Positions 2,894 through 63,736 of a DNA stretch of 64,000 nucleotides are shown piece after piece. Source of the DNA: an uncultured Verrucomicrobiales bacterium (GTDB lineage: Bacteria; Verrucomicrobiota; Verrucomicrobiia; Verrucomicrobiales; Akkermansiaceae). The stretch is taken from the NCBI GenBank assembly GCA_937928545.1, contig CALGJQ010000025.1:1-64000 (forward strand). Reading direction: 5' to 3'. The translations under genes were made by a program, and so were the position numbers. The notes under the pieces were generated by a model, which was not told the origin of the DNA, made no database searches, and saw only the letters and a list, made by a program, of their open reading frames with translations. Within the stretch, counting starts at the first letter, position 1. Each line of letters opens with the position of its first letter.

Positions 2894-4354
2894 ATGCGAT
2901 TCGCCATCATTCCCTTACTATTCACCCTCCTCCACGCTCAAGAAACCGAGAAAAAGAAAGACAAAGCCGAAGAGAAAAACAAAGTCTCCAAACAAGCCTC
3001 CGTCACCATCGATGGCAAAAAAATCGACTACCGCGTCACCGCCTCCACCCTCACGCTCAAAACCGAAAAGGACAAAGACCGCGCCTCCATCTTCCACGTC
3101 GCCTACGAACGCATCGGCCTCGAAGACCGCCACAAACGCCCCGTCATGTTCGCCTTCAACGGCGGCCCCGGCTCCTCCGCCGTTTGGCTCCACCTCGGTG
3201 CCCTCGGCCCGAAACTCGTCCCCACCACTCCCGATGGCACCGCCACCCTTACTCCTCCCACCATCGTTCAAGAAAACCCTCACTCCATTCTCGACGTCGT
3301 AGACCTCGTCTTCATCGACCCCGTCTCCACCGGATTCTCCCGCGTTAAGGGCGATGGCAAAGCCTCCGAATTCCACGGCGTTGATGGCGACATCCGCTCC
3401 GTCGGCGACTTCATCCGCCGCTGGACCACCGAAAACGACCGTTGGGCTTCTCCTAAATACCTCCTCGGCGAATCCTACGGCGGCGTTCGCGCCACCGGCC
3501 TCGCCGACCACCTCCAAGACGAACACGGCATGACCCTCAATGGCGTCGTCCTCCTCTCCTCCCTCGTTGACTTCCGCACCCTCCGAACCAACAAGGCCGA
3601 CGACCTCGCCTACTCCGTCTACCTCCCCGCCATGACTGGCACCTCACACTTCCACAAAAAAATCTCAGGCGACCGCGACACCCTCGTCAAAGAATCCCAC
3701 GCATACGCCTTCGGCCCCTACGCCCAGGCCCTCCTCAAAGGTGCTGACATCTCAGAAGAAGAAAAAAACACCGTCGCCGCCCAGCTCGCAAAATTCACCG
3801 GCCTCCCCGCTTCACTCTTCATCGAGACCAATCTCCGCCTCTCCTCCTCTCGTTATCGAAAAGAACTCCTGCGCGATGAGCGCAAAGTCCTCGGCCGCTT
3901 CGATGCCCGCATTGCCTGGCCCGCCACCGATGTCTCCGATGACTACCCCAGCTATGACCCCTCCTACTCGGTCGCACTCGGAGCCTTTTCCACCGCCATG
4001 AACGACTACCTCAGCCGTGACCTCGGCTGGACTGGTCACCAACCCTACCGCATCCTCACCCGTGCAGTTCACCCATGGAACTGGGGCGCGAATAACAGCG
4101 TCCTCAACATGACCAAGCACCTCGAAAACGCCATGGTCGATAACCCCCAACTTAAGGTCCTCGTCATGTGTGGCTACACCGACCTCGCCACCCCTCCCGC
4201 CAACATGCAATACAGCATCTCACACCTCTTCAACATTCCTGATGAACGCCGCAAAGCCATCGAATTCACCTGGTATGAAGCGGGTCACATGTTCTATCTA
4301 AACCAACCAGACCTCGAAAAAATGAGGATGGATCTCGTCAACTTCCTCAAATAA
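2894..4354 (+). CDS. Secreted serine carboxypeptidase-like protein (peptidase family S10)
   Basis: Exported alpha/beta-hydrolase of family S10, likely releasing C-terminal residues from peptides in the periplasm or outside the cell. An N-terminal signal peptide (about residues 1-16, ending LLHA) is followed by a Lys/Glu-rich linker (about 19-34). Family motifs are FNGGPGSSAVW near 88-98, the nucleophile motif GESYGG with Ser194, the late Asp in CGYTDLATPP, and AGHMFYLNQP with the catalytic His near the C-terminus. The 486-aa length fits bacterial S10 proteins. It is a single-gene unit, closed by a hairpin shared with the convergent tRNA-Gln. The substrate is unknown. Confidence 0.92.
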   Translation: MRFAIIPLLFTLLHAQETEKKKDKAEEKNKVSKQASVTIDGKKIDYRVTASTLTLKTEKDKDRASIFHVAYERIGLEDRHKRPVMFAFNGGPGSSAVWLHLGALGPKLVPTTPDGTATLTPPTIVQENPHSILDVVDLVFIDPVSTGFSRVKGDGKASEFHGVDGDIRSVGDFIRRWTTENDRWASPKYLLGESYGGVRATGLADHLQDEHGMTLNGVVLLSSLVDFRTLRTNKADDLAYSVYLPAMTGTSHFHKKISGDRDTLVKESHAYAFGPYAQALLKGADISEEEKNTVAAQLAKFTGLPASLFIETNLRLSSSRYRKELLRDERKVLGRFDARIAWPATDVSDDYPSYDPSYSVALGAFSTAMNDYLSRDLGWTGHQPYRILTRAVHPWNWGANNSVLNMTKHLENAMVDNPQLKVLVMCGYTDLATPPANMQYSISHLFNIPDERRKAIEFTWYEAGHMFYLNQPDLEKMRMDLVNFLK

Positions 4355-4363
4355 GAAGGAGAG

Positions 4364-4415
4364 AAAAAAAGCCACTCTTTCAAAAAAACAACCTCACTGA
4401 GAGGGAAAGAGTGGC
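4364..4415 (-). terminator. Terminator hairpin between S10 gene and tRNA-Gln
   Basis: An 11-bp perfect inverted repeat, GCCACTCTTTC at 4371-4381 and GAAAGAGTGGC at 4405-4415, is followed on the minus strand by seven T (A-run 4364-4370). The right arm overlaps the CCA end of tRNA-Gln. It most likely ends tRNA-Gln transcription and may also act on the convergent carboxypeptidase mRNA. Confidence 0.65.
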
Positions 4416-4486
4416 AGTCCCACAAGGACTTGAACCTTGAATGACTGAATCAAAATCAGCTGTGTTACCGATTACACCATGGGACT
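4412..4486 (-). tRNA. tRNA-Gln (TTG)
   Basis: Read on the minus strand, the acceptor arms are AGTCCCA and TGGGACT, with discriminator G and an encoded CCA. The anticodon loop is TTTTGAT (anticodon TTG) between GCTGA and TCAGT, and the T-arm has GGTTCAAGTCC. The 75-nt length and features fit bacterial tRNA-Gln. Confidence 0.93.
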
Positions 4487-4664
4487 GGCTCTTCGCCTGC
4501 GCCTTCGCGCGGACGGCGGAGAGATAAATTCACCCGCGCGTTCTTGCAAGGATGAAATAAGCGGATTCCTCATTTTTCTCACCTAATTTCGATGCAACAG
4601 GTTCATCTCGCTGGGAAACTCAAACCTTGTCACGACAGCTCAAAAAACCCACTCTACCTTGGAA

Positions 4665-5372
4665 ATGAAAAAGCAAATCCTAGTTGCACTCACCCTCATT
4701 GCATCAGCAATGGTGACCTTCGGTGCACGTATCCCCGGTAAAAGCTTCCCGATCTCGGAGCTTGAAAAGGCGAAAACCACCGCTCAAGAGCGTGGCAAAC
4801 CACTCATCTTCATCGACACCTGACTATCTGGGTCCTGAGGAAGCACCTTCGTTGTCAGTTCGGCAACTTTTGATGAGTTTAAATCTGTGGGAATCTTTGT
4901 CGTCATCGATAATGATTTAAAAGATTACAAAGGCGAAATGCCTCGCGAGCTTCGCAAGGCTGCCAAGGGCAACACCATGCCCATCGTCGTGGTCACAAAT
5001 TCCGATGGCTCCAAGCCAATCACCGGCTACACCGCCAACGGCAACAATGCCAAATCGGTGAAGCAAATCGCCCGCGACGTAAGAAAGAAGATCCGTGAGA
5101 ATCCTGGGATCATCGCCGCTGGAGCAACTTCAGCATCTGATGAGAAAAAAGCAGAGGAGACCGAAAAAGAGGCCGATTCTAATTCCGCTTACAATGTCAT
5201 CGCTGAGTCCCAGAAATGGACCAACTCTGCCGGAAAAGACATCACCGCCGCGGTCCTCGCGGTTGACGTAAGCAATGTCACCTTCCTCATGCCAAACGGA
5301 AAACAGGTTGAGTATCCCCTCTCCAAGCTCTCCGCTGAAAGTCAGGCCGCCTTGAGCCAGCTTGTTAAGTAA
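4665..5372 (+). CDS. Exported thioredoxin-like protein with two in-frame UGA codons, SHD1-like C-terminus
   Basis: One frame runs from the ATG at 4665 to the TAA at 5372 (236 codons), broken only by UGA at 4821 (codon 53) and UGA at 4836 (codon 58). Before the first UGA are a signal peptide (about residues 1-21) and a thioredoxin-like first strand (KPLIFIDT). After the second UGA the fold continues with a strand reading GIFVVID and a proline preceding the next strand (MPIVVV). The C-terminal about 55 residues (KWTNSAGKDITAAVL, then YPLSKLSAES) resemble the SHD1-like domain common in PVC bacteria. The UGAs sit where a thioredoxin fold carries its redox cysteines, spaced U-x4-U. Alternatives are double selenocysteine, a recent pseudogene, or paired frameshifts: the +1 frame between them reads DYLGPEE. 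A start at 4887 would give only a truncated protein. Confidence 0.55.
4851..4867 (+). promoter_or_regulatory. SECIS-like hairpin downstream of the two UGA codons
   Basis: GTTGTC (4851-4856) pairs with GGCAAC (4862-4867), counting one G-U pair, around the loop AGTTC. The loop starts 19 nt after the second UGA and 34 nt after the first, and its second base is G. As I recall the published bacterial SECIS model, this falls in its range (short upper stem, small apical loop with an early G, 16-37 nt from UGA). It is a weak generic motif, so this is inference only. Confidence 0.3.
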
Positions 5373-5396
5373 AGCTTCCTGATTTCTTCAAATTTC

Positions 5397-5428
5397 AAAA
5401 AGCCGCTTGTTCACCAAGCGGCTTTTTT
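5397..5428 (+). terminator. Intrinsic terminator of the thioredoxin-like gene
   Basis: AGCCGCTTG (5401-5409) and CAAGCGGCT (5415-5423) form a perfect 9-bp stem with loop TTCAC, followed by six T and preceded by five A. It is strong and correctly placed 28 nt after the stop, which suggests the interrupted gene is still a maintained transcription unit. Confidence 0.9.
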
Positions 5429-5446
5429 GTGGGACAAAGCCCACCC

Positions 5447-5475
5447 TTGACCTCCCCTCAAAAAAGCCAGACCTT
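5447..5475 (+). promoter_or_regulatory. Possible prfA promoter
   Basis: TTGACC at 5447-5452 lies 17 nt before GACCTT (5470-5475), about 11 nt upstream of the prfA ATG. The same CCCTTGACC string precedes the outer-membrane gene at 61222. The -10 match is poor; low confidence. Confidence 0.25.
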
Positions 5476-5486
5476 CTCCGCCGCCC

Positions 5487-6563
5487 ATGGACTACGGAAC
5501 TCTCATCGAAAAACGCCAAACACGACTCGCCGAGATCGAAAAGCTCATGGAGGACCCCGAGTTCTTCAGTGACCAGAGAACCTCCACGCAATACATGCGC
5601 GAACACCGTGGGCTCAAAAAACTCCTCAGTCTCTGGGAAGAATACCAGCAACTCATCACCGACATCGCCGGAAACGAGGAACTCGCCAAAGGCGACGACC
5701 CCGAATTCGCCGCGATGGCCGAAGAAGAACTTCCGCCCATGCGCGAGCGCTTTGAGACCCTCGGCCAAGAAGTCCAATACGCCCTCCTCCCCCGCGACGA
5801 AACTGAGGACCGCGATGCCCTCCTCGAAATCCGTGCCGGAGCTGGTGGTGACGAAGCCTCCCTCTTCGCTGGCGAACTCCTGAACGCTTACCAACGCTAC
5901 AGCGACAAACGCGGTTGGAAATGCGAGCACCTCGGCAGCTCCCCCTCCGATGTTGGAGGTTATAAAGAGGTCGTCCTCAAAGTCACCGGAGAAGAAGTCT
6001 TCCGCTTTCTCAAATACGAATCCGGCGTTCACCGCGTCCAGCGCGTTCCCGCCACCGAAACCCAAGGCCGCATTCACACCTCCACCTGCACCGTCGCCGT
6101 CATGCCAGAGGCTGAGGAAGTGGACTTCCAGCTCCGCCCTGAGGACCTCCACATCCAAGCCACCCGCTCCGGTGGTTCCGGCGGACAGCACGTCAACACC
6201 ACCGACTCCGCCGTGCAAATCACCTACCTTCCCACTGGCCTTCAAGTGAAATGCCAAGACGGACGCTCACAAACCCAAAACAAAGCCCTCGGCCTCGAAA
6301 TTCTCCGCGCCAAGCTCTTCGAAATCGCACAACGCGAAGCTCAAGAAAGCTACTCAGCTCAGCGCAAATCCCTCATCGGCTCCGGAGACCGCTCCGAGAA
6401 AATCCGCACCTACAACTTCCCCCAATCTCGCGTCACCGATCACCGCATCAACTACACCTCCCACAACATGGAAGGCATCATGAATGGCGAGATCTTCGAA
6501 TTCACCGACAACCTCCAAAAGGCCGAAATGGAACAGCGCCTCGCCGAAGAGGAATTGGGCTAA
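5487..6563 (+). CDS. prfA: Peptide chain release factor 1
   Basis: Recognises UAA and UAG in the ribosomal A site and triggers peptide release; cytoplasmic. The 358 aa match the family. The GGQ peptidyl-hydrolysis loop is intact in SGGSGGQHVNTTDSAV, and the upstream HRVQRVPATETQGRIHTS block is the conserved RF1 core. A PAT tripeptide is present, typical of RF1 rather than RF2 (SPF). It is the first gene of a cluster with prmC, which methylates the GGQ glutamine, but a toxin-antitoxin pair lies between them. RF1 does not read UGA, which is relevant to the UGA codons of the gene before it. Confidence 0.97.
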   Translation: MDYGTLIEKRQTRLAEIEKLMEDPEFFSDQRTSTQYMREHRGLKKLLSLWEEYQQLITDIAGNEELAKGDDPEFAAMAEEELPPMRERFETLGQEVQYALLPRDETEDRDALLEIRAGAGGDEASLFAGELLNAYQRYSDKRGWKCEHLGSSPSDVGGYKEVVLKVTGEEVFRFLKYESGVHRVQRVPATETQGRIHTSTCTVAVMPEAEEVDFQLRPEDLHIQATRSGGSGGQHVNTTDSAVQITYLPTGLQVKCQDGRSQTQNKALGLEILRAKLFEIAQREAQESYSAQRKSLIGSGDRSEKIRTYNFPQSRVTDHRINYTSHNMEGIMNGEIFEFTDNLQKAEMEQRLAEEELG

Positions 6564-59732: not shown

Positions 59733-61145
59733 ATGTCCTTCATCATCCTTTCAAAGCGCAGCTCTCTCCTCGTCGTGCTCCTTTCGCTCGCCTTCATAGG
59801 CTGCAGCCCCATCGATGAAGTTCAGCCCATTTCCACTTCAAAAATCGACGCCCCCTACGCCTTCAAATCCGCCACTTCCGGACAAAACGCCAAAATCTCC
59901 ACCGGCTGGCTCCGTGAATTTCGCGACACTCGCATGAGCAAGCTCGTCAACGAAGCCCTCAAGCATAACCAAAGCCTCAAAGCCGCCGCATACCGCCTTC
60001 GCTCCGCAAAAGAAGGCACCATCATCGGCCGCGCTGCTCGCCTCCCCAGCATCACCGCCTCTACCAGCTACCGCGAAACCGATGGCAAAAACACCGTCTC
60101 CAGCGAAAACTACTCCATCTCCTTCAATGCCTCATGGGAGGCCGACCTCTGGGGCCGCCTTCGCAATCTCGACCTTTCCACCCAAGCCAACTTCGCCGCC
60201 TCTGTCGCCGACTTCCGCTCCGCCCGACTCTCCATCGCCGCCAACACCGCCCAATCATGGTGTAACCTCATCACCGCCGAGCAACAACTCGCCCTCGCTC
60301 AAAAAACCGTCGCCTCCTACAAGCAAGCCCTTCCCGTTGTCGAGCGTCGCTACAAGGCGAACACCCTCCGAGCCGTCGATGTCCAATTCGCCCGCAACAA
60401 CGTCGCCTCCGCCGAGCGCTCCCTCCGCGTCCGGCAACTCGACCGCGATAACGCCGCTCGCAACCTCGAAATTTTCCTCGGCCGATACCCCTCTGCTTCC
60501 GTCACCTCTTCTCTCGATCTCCCCTACCTCTCTGACGAAATCCCCGTCGGACTTCCCTCCCAACTCATCGAACGACGCCCCGATCTCGTCGCAGCCCGCG
60601 CCCAGCTTTTCGCCTCCGCCCAAGACGCTAAGGCCGCCCGCAAAAACCTCCTCCCCTCCCTCCGCCTCACCGGCGGTGCCTCGAATGGAGCCGACACCTT
60701 CCGCCGCGTCCTGGATCCAAATTACCTCGTCTACTCCATCGCGGCATCCCTTGCCCAGACCATCTATCAAGGCGGAGCTCTCAACGCTCGCTCCCGTGCC
60801 GCCTATCACCAAAACCGCGCCGAGATCGAAGACTACGCCCGCGTCGCCCTCCTCGCCTTCCGTGAAGTCGAGGCCGCCCTCGCCGCCGACCGCTCTCTCA
60901 GCGAGCAACAAGTCTTCCTCGAAAAAGAAGTAAAACAAACCAAGCTCGCCGAAAAACGGGCCCTCTCTGACATCACCCTCGGCATCGATGGCGCCTCCTT
61001 CCTCGAATACCTTGAAGCCCAACGACGCTCCGAAAACGCCGGCATTTCACTCATCCGTCTCAAAAACTCCCGCCTCCAAAACCGCATCGACCTCCACCTC
61101 GCCCTCGGCGGTGATTATTCCACAATTACGGAGCTTGGACTTTAG
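59733..61145 (+). CDS. TolC/OprM-type outer membrane efflux lipoprotein
   Basis: 470 aa with a lipoprotein signal (LLVVLLSLAFIGCSPI; Cys at about 24) and the two-repeat TolC layout of long helices: WLREFRDTRMSKLVNEALKHNQSLKAAAYRLRSAKEGTIIGRAARLPS, LTGGASNGADTFRRVLDPNYLVYSIAASLAQTIYQGGALN. It would form the outer membrane duct of an RND or ABC efflux system, in agreement with the adaptor at 62531. Its last residues ELGL and the TAG stop are supplied by a palindromic repeat. Confidence 0.9.
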   Translation: MSFIILSKRSSLLVVLLSLAFIGCSPIDEVQPISTSKIDAPYAFKSATSGQNAKISTGWLREFRDTRMSKLVNEALKHNQSLKAAAYRLRSAKEGTIIGRAARLPSITASTSYRETDGKNTVSSENYSISFNASWEADLWGRLRNLDLSTQANFAASVADFRSARLSIAANTAQSWCNLITAEQQLALAQKTVASYKQALPVVERRYKANTLRAVDVQFARNNVASAERSLRVRQLDRDNAARNLEIFLGRYPSASVTSSLDLPYLSDEIPVGLPSQLIERRPDLVAARAQLFASAQDAKAARKNLLPSLRLTGGASNGADTFRRVLDPNYLVYSIAASLAQTIYQGGALNARSRAAYHQNRAEIEDYARVALLAFREVEAALAADRSLSEQQVFLEKEVKQTKLAEKRALSDITLGIDGASFLEYLEAQRRSENAGISLIRLKNSRLQNRIDLHLALGGDYSTITELGL

Positions 61146-61183: not shown

Positions 61184-61222
61184 TTGACCATCCCTCTCGT
61201 TAATGCAAATTGATTGCGTTAA
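61184..61222 (+). promoter_or_regulatory. Operator-like palindrome before the His-rich outer-membrane gene
   Basis: TTAATGCAA (61200-61208), spacer ATTGA, and TTGCGTTAA (61214-61222) form a 9-bp inverted repeat with one mismatch that ends on the first base of the ATG. TTGACC at 61184-61189 could be a -35. The TGCAA-N5-TTGC core recalls Fur-family boxes, so metal control is possible (inference). Confidence 0.45.
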
Positions 61223-62436
61223 TGAAACCGACACTATTCTACTCCTTCGCTCTCGCAAGCAGCCTCACCGCTGCCGAAATTGATATCTACCCCACTCTCC
61301 ACTTCAACGGAGTCGTTGGTGACACCACCGCCGACTCCTTCGAAGAAGTCGGCGGACACGCTCATGATCCCAACGATGAGATCGCACTTCAAGGCTTGGA
61401 CATCGGCCTGAATGCCCGCGTTGACGAATGGTTCTCCGCCTTCGCCAACATCACCGTCTTCACCGACTCGGATCACAAACTCGATTGGGAGTGGGAAGAA
61501 GCCTTCGCCAAATTCAACACCCCCGGCGGCTTCGAGATTCGCGGCGGACTTTTCCTCAACCGCTTCGGCCTCCAAAACAACATCCACCTTCACAACTGGA
61601 ACTTTGCCAACGCCAACCTCTCCACCTCACAATTCCTCGGAGACGAAGGACTCGCCACCGAAGGTTTCGAGATCAACTGGCAACGCGACTTTGACCAATC
61701 CTTCATCATCCTCACCGCGAGTTACGGCAAAGCCCGTGAACACGCGCATGAAGACGAACATGGCGAGGAAGAAGAAGACCATCATGAAGATGAAGATGAC
61801 CACGATGAGGAAGAAGAGGATCACGACAAGGATGAAGACGAACACGGCCACGAAAGCGCCGAAGACGCTCTCTTTAACCATGAACTCATCACCGCTCGCG
61901 CCCTTTTCGGATATAACCAAACCGACTTCCACCAGCACCGCCTCGGTCTAAACGGAGCTTGGGGTGACAACGGCTACGGCCGCAACACCCGCCTCCATTC
62001 CGTCGACTACACCTACACCTGGAGAGAAAACGGTCTCGACGCTGGCGGTCGCGCCTTCTCCATCGGCGCCGAGTACTTTCATCGTGATGTTCAATGGGCC
62101 CACCCTGACGACAGCAACTTTCAGGGCTCCACTTCCCAAAACGGCTACATGGCATTCGTCAACTACCGCTTCACCGAAAACTGGATCGCTGACCTTCGCT
62201 ACGAGCACCTTCAAGGCGTCTCCGGCGGACCCGAAGATCATGAAGGCGAAATCGAATACGCTTTTGCCTCTGGCGAGCGCGACCGTCTGTCCCTCGCCCT
62301 CACTCGCGAGTTTCTCTATAAAGACACCCGCTCCATGGTCCGCTTGCAGTATTCCCACGACGAAACTGAAGAAGGAGGTGATGACTCCATCTGGCTCCAA
62401 TTCGGCTTCAATTTCGGCCGCGACGAAGTCAGGTAG
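61222..62436 (+). CDS. Outer-membrane beta-barrel protein with His/Asp/Glu-rich loop
   Basis: 404 aa from the ATG at 61222; a TTG at 61210 is less likely. Signal peptide (MKPTLFYSFALASSLTAAE), then alternating beta strands ending with aromatic residues up to the C-terminus (SIWLQFGFNFGRD), as in porins. A loop at about residues 172-215 is nearly all His, Asp and Glu (HAHEDEHGEEEEDHHED...) and would bind zinc or similar metal ions. Not a TonB-dependent receptor (no plug). Set between an efflux duct and an efflux adaptor and behind a Fur-like palindrome. Confidence 0.7.
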   Translation: MKPTLFYSFALASSLTAAEIDIYPTLHFNGVVGDTTADSFEEVGGHAHDPNDEIALQGLDIGLNARVDEWFSAFANITVFTDSDHKLDWEWEEAFAKFNTPGGFEIRGGLFLNRFGLQNNIHLHNWNFANANLSTSQFLGDEGLATEGFEINWQRDFDQSFIILTASYGKAREHAHEDEHGEEEEDHHEDEDDHDEEEEDHDKDEDEHGHESAEDALFNHELITARALFGYNQTDFHQHRLGLNGAWGDNGYGRNTRLHSVDYTYTWRENGLDAGGRAFSIGAEYFHRDVQWAHPDDSNFQGSTSQNGYMAFVNYRFTENWIADLRYEHLQGVSGGPEDHEGEIEYAFASGERDRLSLALTREFLYKDTRSMVRLQYSHDETEEGGDDSIWLQFGFNFGRDEVR

Positions 62437-62530: not shown

Positions 62531-63736
62531 ATGGCAAAACTTCTTCGCTACATCCTTCCCTTCATCGTCCTCGGTGTGGGCTATTTGGGATATAAAAATC
62601 TAGCGACCGAAGAAAAAAAAGAACGCCCTCGCCGACCTACTCCGCCCATGATCGAAACTGAGGCCAGCACCTTGGAACGTCTCGATTACCAGGTCACTCT
62701 TCAATCAGAAGGCCTAGTCCAACCTCATAACCAAACCGCCCTCACCCCTCGGGTCAGCGGCCGCGTCATTCACATCTCGCCGAAGTTTGAGAGCGGCTCA
62801 TTCTTTGAGAAAAATGACACCCTCATCGAAATCGATCCTACCGATTTCCTCGCCGCAAAAATCTCCGCAGAAGCCCGACTCGCCCGATCCGAAGCCGCTC
62901 TCGCTCAAGAAGAAGCCCGCGCCGAACAAGCCCTCCTCGATTGGAAAGATCTCGGCTACACCAGCCCGCCCACCGAACTTGTCCTCCGTAAGCCTCAACT
63001 CAAAGAAGCGAACGCCAATGTCAAAGCGTCACAAGCAGACCTTGCCGAAGCCATCCGAAATCTCGAACGCACCAAGGTCCTCGCCCCCTACTCTGGCCGC
63101 GTCAAAGAACGCCTCGTGGGACTTGGACAATCCGTCAACTCCGGCACCACCCTCGGCAATGTTTTTTCCACCGACTTCGCTGAAATTCGCCTCTCCCTTT
63201 CCGCGCGGGAACTCACCCACGTCAAGCTCCCCAACAACCCTGAAGACGCCCCCGTCCCCGTTACTTTGCATGATGCTCTGACCGAAGATTCCCAGCAATC
63301 CTGGCAAGGATCGATCGTCCGCACGGAAGGAACCTTGGATGAAAAATCTCGTAAACTCTTCATCATCGCCCGCGTCGATGACCCCTTCGGCCTAAAGTCA
63401 AAGGTCCAATCTCCCCTCCGCATCGGACAACCCGTCCGCGCTGTTTTGCAAGGCGGTATCATTCCTCAAGTTTTCGTCATTCCCCGAGAGAATCTCCTCC
63501 GACCAAATCAAGTCCTCCTCGTCAACCCCGAGGATTCCACCCTCAAGCGGCAGGACATCACCCCAATTTGGAGCGACCTTGAAAATCTCATCGTTGCCGA
63601 TGACCTCATCGAAGGCTGGCTTCTCGTCACCAGCAGACTTTCCACTTCGGCCAACGGAGCCAAGGTCAAAGTCATCGAGCCCGAGCCCGATGAACCCAAA
63701 GCCGCCTCCAAGGATAAAGCAAAACCGAGAGCCTGA
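62531..63736 (+). CDS. Efflux RND/HlyD-type periplasmic adaptor
   Basis: 401 aa with an N-terminal membrane anchor (LLRYILPFIVLGVGYLGY) and the membrane-fusion layout: beta-barrel/lipoyl halves (LVQPHNQTALTPRVSGRVIHISPKFESGSFFEKNDTLIEID and VLAPYSGRVKERLVGLGQSVNSGTTLGNVFSTD) around a short coiled coil (AEARLARSEAALAQEEARAEQ), then a C-terminal domain ending in a Lys/Pro tail. Partner of the TolC-like protein at 59733. No RND pump or ABC permease is inside the window, since the next gene is nuoE-like. Confidence 0.9.
   Translation: MAKLLRYILPFIVLGVGYLGYKNLATEEKKERPRRPTPPMIETEASTLERLDYQVTLQSEGLVQPHNQTALTPRVSGRVIHISPKFESGSFFEKNDTLIEIDPTDFLAAKISAEARLARSEAALAQEEARAEQALLDWKDLGYTSPPTELVLRKPQLKEANANVKASQADLAEAIRNLERTKVLAPYSGRVKERLVGLGQSVNSGTTLGNVFSTDFAEIRLSLSARELTHVKLPNNPEDAPVPVTLHDALTEDSQQSWQGSIVRTEGTLDEKSRKLFIIARVDDPFGLKSKVQSPLRIGQPVRAVLQGGIIPQVFVIPRENLLRPNQVLLVNPEDSTLKRQDITPIWSDLENLIVADDLIEGWLLVTSRLSTSANGAKVKVIEPEPDEPKAASKDKAKPRA

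Follow-up and report, generated by a model that had tools for sequence, protein, structure and literature searches.

Organization of the locus

The DNA that we analysed, referred to here as the window, is a stretch of 64,000 nucleotides and lies in contig C25 of the genome of an uncultured Verrucomicrobiales bacterium (3.98 Mb, 75 contigs, 91.75% complete). On its plus strand, positions 4665–5372 hold the coding frame of a thioredoxin-like protein that appears to carry two selenocysteines (Sec), with 235 codons plus TAA; the start ATG is read at 4665 and the stop at 5370–5372. According to our own reading, the neighbours are a serine-carboxypeptidase-like gene upstream (2894–4354) and prfA downstream (5487–6563), and a tRNA gene lies on the minus strand at 4415–4486. 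The translation runs MKKQIL...KPLIFIDT-UGA-LSGS-UGA-GSTFVVSSATFDEF..., where codons 1–21 (4665–4727, plus strand) make up a putative signal peptide, proposed from the sequence only. We confirmed that the two UGA codons noticed at 4821 and 4836 by a first-pass annotation of this DNA are in frame; they are codon 53 (4821–4823, plus strand) and codon 58 (4836–4838, plus strand), which we read as Sec53 and Sec58. The number of sense codons after the second UGA is 177 and not 178 as had been counted, and the stretch 3' of it was open in 1 of 2000 base-shuffled versions. As for the terminator that had been placed 3' of the gene, a 10-bp terminator-like hairpin followed by an A/T run with a T run can be read by eye at 5400–5428 (plus strand), but it was absent from a consensus scan of 4300–5600.

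Other genes combining a UGA with a hairpin were sought in the window. The search gave two candidates (minus strand, 61049 and 61629), which were discarded because longer frames run antisense to them on the plus strand. A viral origin was also discarded, as no relative was found among viral contigs with the downstream part as query. Separately, by our own reading, a frame with a long His/Asp/Glu-rich stretch (61210–62436) sits between a TolC-like frame (59733–61145) and an HlyD-like frame (62531–63736), and together they may form a cluster for metal efflux or uptake.

Conservation of the two UGA codons

Both TGA codons are kept in orthologues from two other species, in genomes G018 (62% identity) and G011 (53% identity), and the codon alignment of the three sequences is gap-free there, with TGA in 3/3 at codon 53. 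The genome G018 shares the neighbourhood of the window gene, with flanking proteins 81–95% identical in the main matches; the orthologous protein itself is less conserved than these (60% identity after the second UGA). The G011 copy shares no neighbours with the window within the stretch examined. The four codons between the UGAs read LSGS, LSIG and LGVS, such that three of the four change residue, and synonymous sites are saturated in the pairs with G011. Between the window gene and G018, dN/dS was 0.281/1.425 overall, 0.23/1.85 before UGA53 and 0.287/1.288 after UGA58.

A decayed gene, a sequencing error or two compensating indels could produce such stops, and the draft state of the assembly and a +1 frame that is protein-like in the window (DYLGPEE, as had been pointed out) leave room for this explanation. 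Nevertheless, the same two TGAs are maintained in two diverged orthologues, in a gap-free stretch with purifying selection on either side, which argues against all three possibilities, and the +1 frame is protein-like in the window alone: one orthologue has DSPLVED there, and in the other the frame is interrupted by a stop. We give this explanation practically no credit. Comparison of the three species shows that the frame and its UGA codons are conserved, in agreement with the earlier view that the gene is not decayed; it is very probably intact, not broken by the stops, and encodes a secreted redox protein, where export is inferred.

Homologues and the residues at codons 53 and 58

With the window protein as query, a match was obtained in 94 of 116 relatives, many of them through the C-terminal domain only. 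With a 21-row profile, a match at 1e-8 was obtained in 162 of 260 family genomes; with a 57-row profile, the matches were 131 of 386 genomes of the order sample at 1e-15 and 22 of 387 genomes of the phylum sample at 1e-20. The gene counts rest on truncated match lists and are lower bounds. Regions were taken for the better matches plus part of the weaker ones. The genome that contains the window has two further family members with one UGA each, on contigs C11 (L002, UGPC) and C3 (L111, UVAC). In another genome, a tandem pair of family members was observed (L029:1480-2955, G046:C51), also with one UGA each, of the types UGPC and UPTC. A single-Sec UGPC member is present in the named cultured strain Rubritalea marina DSM 17716 (L154, NZ_KB899253.1), which makes the family testable at the bench.

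The first-pass annotation had supposed that both UGAs sit at positions of redox cysteines and had proposed an alignment of homologues as a check. In the 143 distinct active-site contexts that we aligned, codon 58 corresponds to Sec in 103, Cys in 28, other residues in 10 and a gap in 2, so that relatives have UGA or Cys at what is the canonical Sec/Cys position of the family. The commonest Sec sites are UGPC (35), UVDC (11), UGPS (10), UPTC (9) and UVAC (8), with 3 of the window type, UGST. The supposition therefore holds for codon 58, but not for codon 53, which is never Cys elsewhere (0 of the other 100 Sec rows and 0 of the 28 Cys rows), and Asp occupies that column in 31 of 35 UGPC rows. 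The gene satisfies the selenoprotein criterion that homologues have Cys or UGA opposite the in-frame UGA; at codon 53, the counterpart is TGA in the three orthologues and never Cys.

Predicted fold

An AlphaFold2 model was built from the 57-row alignment (mean pLDDT 86.9, pTM 0.62). Foldseek matched its first domain to thioredoxins, DsbH and others (best E 9.4e-5) and its second domain to SLA1 homology domain 1 (2hbp, E 4e-3, TM-score by target 0.69). Codon 53 comes after the model strand 47–52 and codon 58 stands before the model helix 59–72, such that the predicted model satisfies the criterion for a thioredoxin fold, in which a strand leads into the first helix and the active site lies at the N-terminus of that helix. 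In thioredoxins, the first Cys of the CxxC motif sits just before the first helix, as codon 58 does here. Pro106, invariant in 57/57 rows, occupies what we take to be the expected place of the cis-Pro. The CxxC/UxxC motif of thiol-disulfide oxidoreductases, with Cys or Sec at either end of a four-residue site, is absent from the window protein (UGST) and present in 86 of the 103 Sec contexts. For the SHD1-like C-terminal domain that had been recognized earlier (about codons 179–233; 5199–5363, plus strand), support comes from the Foldseek match of the model and from the Pfam search at 0.1, in which SHD1 was found in 5 of 21 members and Thioredoxin_7 in 4; in the window protein itself, however, Pfam SHD1 was not found.

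A bSECIS-like hairpin downstream of UGA58

A hairpin resembling the bacterial SECIS element (bSECIS) lies 3' of UGA58 at 4851–4867 on the plus strand, with a 6-bp stem and the loop AGUUC at 4857–4861 (GUUGUC-AGUUC-GGCAAC); the distance to the first loop position is 18 nt from UGA58 and 33 nt from UGA53. Positions 4850–4866 are identical in the DNA of the three orthologues despite the saturation of synonymous sites, as expected of an RNA element. Family members have the same 6-bp stem and 5-nt loop at equal distance, or 3 nt further on with an extra codon. In a covariation set of 53 distinct hairpins from 77 sites, 88.1% of the cells were paired against a mean of 75.3% in 500 shuffles, cells with two-sided changes numbered 56 against 13.9, and the covariation score was 0.458 against 0.222, values that none of the 500 shuffles reached. 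Two-sided changes affected 5 of the 6 pairs, which was equalled by 15 of the 500 shuffles. Versions of the hairpin slid along the sequence all paired less (16.7–54.0%), although the slide of +1 also had 5 pairs with two-sided changes. The rule for stem and loop held at 100 of the 102 distinct Sec sites and at 7 of the 29 Cys sites, and a perfect hairpin at that distance follows only 7 of the 2455 TGA triplets in the window. The folding energy of the hairpin region as a single sequence was no better than that of shuffles, so that the case for the hairpin is built on comparative evidence only.

The scan for terminators also picks up the hairpin at 4851–4867, which has TTTT behind it. We considered a terminator instead of a SECIS element and rejected it on account of the fixed distance from the UGA, the covariation and the rarity of the hairpin in Cys relatives. 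The bSECIS model in the accessible parts of PMC13188914 has a stem of 4–16 bp, a loop of 3–9 nt with a G in the first two loop positions, a distance of 16–37 nt between UGA and loop and an energy of at most −7.5 kcal/mol. As far as that text goes, the window hairpin meets the model, with −9.1 kcal/mol over 45 nt from UGA58. Because both UGA58 (18 nt) and UGA53 (33 nt) fall within the 16–37 nt range, one hairpin can serve both, as we infer it does; the two UGAs are only 12 nt apart, too little space for another.

It could still be that only UGA58 encodes Sec and that UGA53 is a site of near-cognate read-through or a regulatory stop, considering that no other row has Cys at codon 53 and that the distance of UGA53 from the loop is close to the far end of the range, at least as published in the portion of PMC13188914 at hand. 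That distance is nonetheless within the range so given, and the corresponding one in the distant double-Sec relative L141 is 27 nt. Moreover, TGA53 is kept in three species among which the next four codons differ and synonymous sites have nearly saturated, and we regard a single Sec in this protein as very unlikely.

Selenocysteine machinery

The first-pass annotation had called for a search of the genome for selA, selB, selC and selD, and all four were found, which satisfies the machinery criterion for bacterial selenoproteins. The tRNA-Sec scored 59.2 bits, above the Rfam cut-off, with the anticodon tca assigned by ARAGORN; SelB (319 bits), SelA (480 bits) and SelD (381 bits) scored above their curated cut-offs. 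The selD gene has one in-frame UGA of its own in the context SCGG-U-ASK, which agrees with UxxK, the motif given for Sec-SelD in the available sections of PMC13188914. A partial second selA match lies about 2 kb from the full selA (G000:C5:11411-11764; L049, L050) and is perhaps a truncated duplicate.

At the family level, SelA was detected in 70 of 260 genomes at 1e-40. It was present in 50 of the 55 genomes in which a Sec member was found versus 0 of the 25 in which only Cys members were found (p 4e-16, without correction for kinship; the 25 include G035, which is counted through a longer redoxin-like protein, L038). The genomes with a UGA member and no selA match are G001, G022, G277, G287 and G292, four of which are 70–86% complete. 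The genome G277 is listed as 96% complete and has a UGPC member (L062), yet no selA match at 1e-40, which may be either an assembly gap or a loss of the machinery.

The earlier double-selenocysteine reading is thus supported by the machinery, by the exchange of Sec and Cys at codon 58 and by two orthologues with both UGAs. Although Sec insertion at both sites is inferred and there is no direct evidence of translation, we have little doubt that the window protein contains two Sec residues, and we hold with high confidence that they sit on a redox protein with a thioredoxin fold.

Loss of the partner cysteine and the second Sec

In a tree of 57 proteins, the window protein and its two orthologues form a clade (100/100) within a 16-row Sec clade (99/99) that otherwise contains UGPC or URPC members plus L141, which suggests, from sequence comparison, that the trio may descend from a Sec-x-x-Cys ancestor. 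After removal of the active-site columns, the trio still grouped together (100/100 and 100/99), and the larger clade was without strong support (94/92, 29 rows). Of the 27 genomes of the genus, 3 have the double-Sec window type, and the matches listed show it in no further genome.

The Cys at +3 is kept in 86 of the 103 Sec contexts, and none of these 86 has another Sec within 12 residues upstream. It is missing in 17, namely the trio, L141 and 13 members of the types UGPS (10) and UGPA (3). In the window type, UGST, the +3 Cys is replaced by Thr and there is an extra Sec five residues upstream of Sec58 (−5). The 13 UGPS/UGPA members have neither the +3 Cys nor a second Sec upstream, so that a lone Sec can manage without that Cys. 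All the rows that have a second Sec lack the +3 Cys (4/17 without this Cys vs 0/86 with it; Fisher p 5e-4, the rows being related). The 13 lone-Sec members form one clade, separate from L141, so there may have been just three losses, two of them with a second Sec.

The lone-Sec clade comes from order-level genomes (L188, L189, L190, L192, L193, L194, L196, L197, L198, L199, L200, L202 and L203). We abandoned a strict rule by which loss of the +3 Cys equals gain of a second Sec, which was true in the first set and is broken by these 13 members. In the protein L141 (L141:86-771, G088:C31), the site reads KUGNUGPA, a U-x-x-U arrangement with the extra Sec at −3 and a hairpin behind it; the arrangement comes from a single draft-genome sequence, whose branch is long. 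The different spacing and separate placement hint that the second Sec was gained twice independently, but this could not be upheld, as a single clade of the four double-Sec proteins was not rejected (p-AU 0.48) and L141 has that long branch.

Proposed role of Sec53

On the basis of these comparisons, we propose that SelB and tRNA-Sec would decode both UGAs as Sec, directed by one bSECIS hairpin. Sec58, where the first thioredoxin helix begins, would provide the catalytic selenol and attack the substrate. The ancestral partner Cys at +3 having been replaced by Thr, its resolving role may have been taken over by Sec53, where the preceding strand ends; from the loop just ahead, Sec53 would close a Sec53-Sec58 diselenide, to be reopened by some reductant. 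The diselenide and an envelope role, reductase- or peroxidase-like, are inferences. In the absence of data on the distance between the two Sec residues, the chances that Sec53 resolves through a diselenide seem to us evenly balanced. We are similarly undecided on the broader proposal, that the resolving role moved from a Cys to a second Sec on the other side of the catalytic Sec (−5 here, −3 in the distant relative), giving an all-selenium site encoded by two UGAs with a single bSECIS.

Both UGAs may instead be Sec without a catalytic diselenide, Sec58 acting alone and Sec53 serving in metal or selenium binding or in the tuning of Sec58. Thirteen relatives do with a lone Sec and no +3 Cys, and glutathione peroxidases work with a lone Sec at a UxxT site. 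The UGST of the window protein is a site of the UxxT kind, as listed for GPX-like proteins in the accessible parts of PMC13188914. The restriction of the upstream second Sec to rows that lack the +3 Cys looks, on the contrary, like compensation, even if the four rows perhaps represent one or two events, and we consider a protein without the diselenide a real possibility, though a somewhat doubtful one.

The gene points to a large family of selenoproteins in Verrucomicrobiales and their relatives. The search of NCBIfam 20.0 gave no model for it, and its genes would be truncated or overlooked by standard stop-codon annotation. The double-Sec branch lends itself to testing the reach of one bSECIS and why an enzyme would have two selenols in place of a selenol and a thiol. 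As the Sec-x-x-Cys, Sec-Sec, lone-Sec and Cys-Cys forms all occur on one fold, the advantage of each is directly measurable.

Comparison with known selenoproteins

None of the 25 members scanned reached a cut-off in NCBIfam 20.0; the only selenoprotein model listed was NF041199, for one member, with an E of 0.091. No description of this family was found in the open-licence literature, including the accessible parts of PMC13188914, PMC9312934, PMC2398784, PMC12013277 and PMC1794560, and likewise nothing in those of PMC5029168, PMC9402790, PMC4807772 and PMC3281104. The word Verrucomicrobi is absent from the available text of the first five of these and of PMC5029168 and PMC9402790; PMC4807772 and PMC3281104, to the extent available, name the phylum in other contexts.

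Two Sec residues with four residues between them also occur in TsoB (NF045694), a rhodanese/DsbD fusion-like selenoprotein listed as UxxxxU with 2 Sec in the accessible portion of PMC13188914. The U-x4-U spacing is therefore not new in itself, but on that listing it belongs to a different family, with another fold going by its listed name (rhodanese-like). The double-Sec UxxU proteins, Prx-like 2 of the GOS survey (PMC2398784) and the metal-binding NF041115 (PMC13188914), resemble ours, so far as these sources are accessible, in having two nearby Sec on small redox proteins, and L141 has their U-x-x-U spacing; their second Sec, however, is at +3, whereas here it lies upstream and +3 is Thr or Ala. 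Neither the TsoB model nor the UxxU double-Sec models had a match among the 25 members scanned against NCBIfam.

The active site of glutathione peroxidases is U-G-x-T. GPX-like proteins (PF00255) are listed as UxxT in the same partly available PMC13188914, and they share with the window protein a UxxT-type active site on a thioredoxin fold; by analogy, a peroxidase-like reaction is possible. The window protein differs in its second Sec at −5 and its SHD1-like tail, and PF00255 had no match among the 21 members scanned against Pfam.

A further likeness is to the UxxC thioredoxin-like selenoproteins, represented by the Trx-like groups of the GOS survey in the accessible parts of PMC2398784 and by thioredoxin PF00085, given as UxxC in those of PMC13188914. 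PF00085 had no match in the 21 members scanned, and single-Sec relatives may be hidden in the broad Trx-like groups of metagenome surveys. Judged by what these sources make available, both have Sec at the N-terminal position of CxxC on a thioredoxin fold, and the relatives of the window protein are themselves UxxC; the window protein, unlike them, lacks the +3 Cys and combines a second Sec at −5 with an SHD1-like tail.
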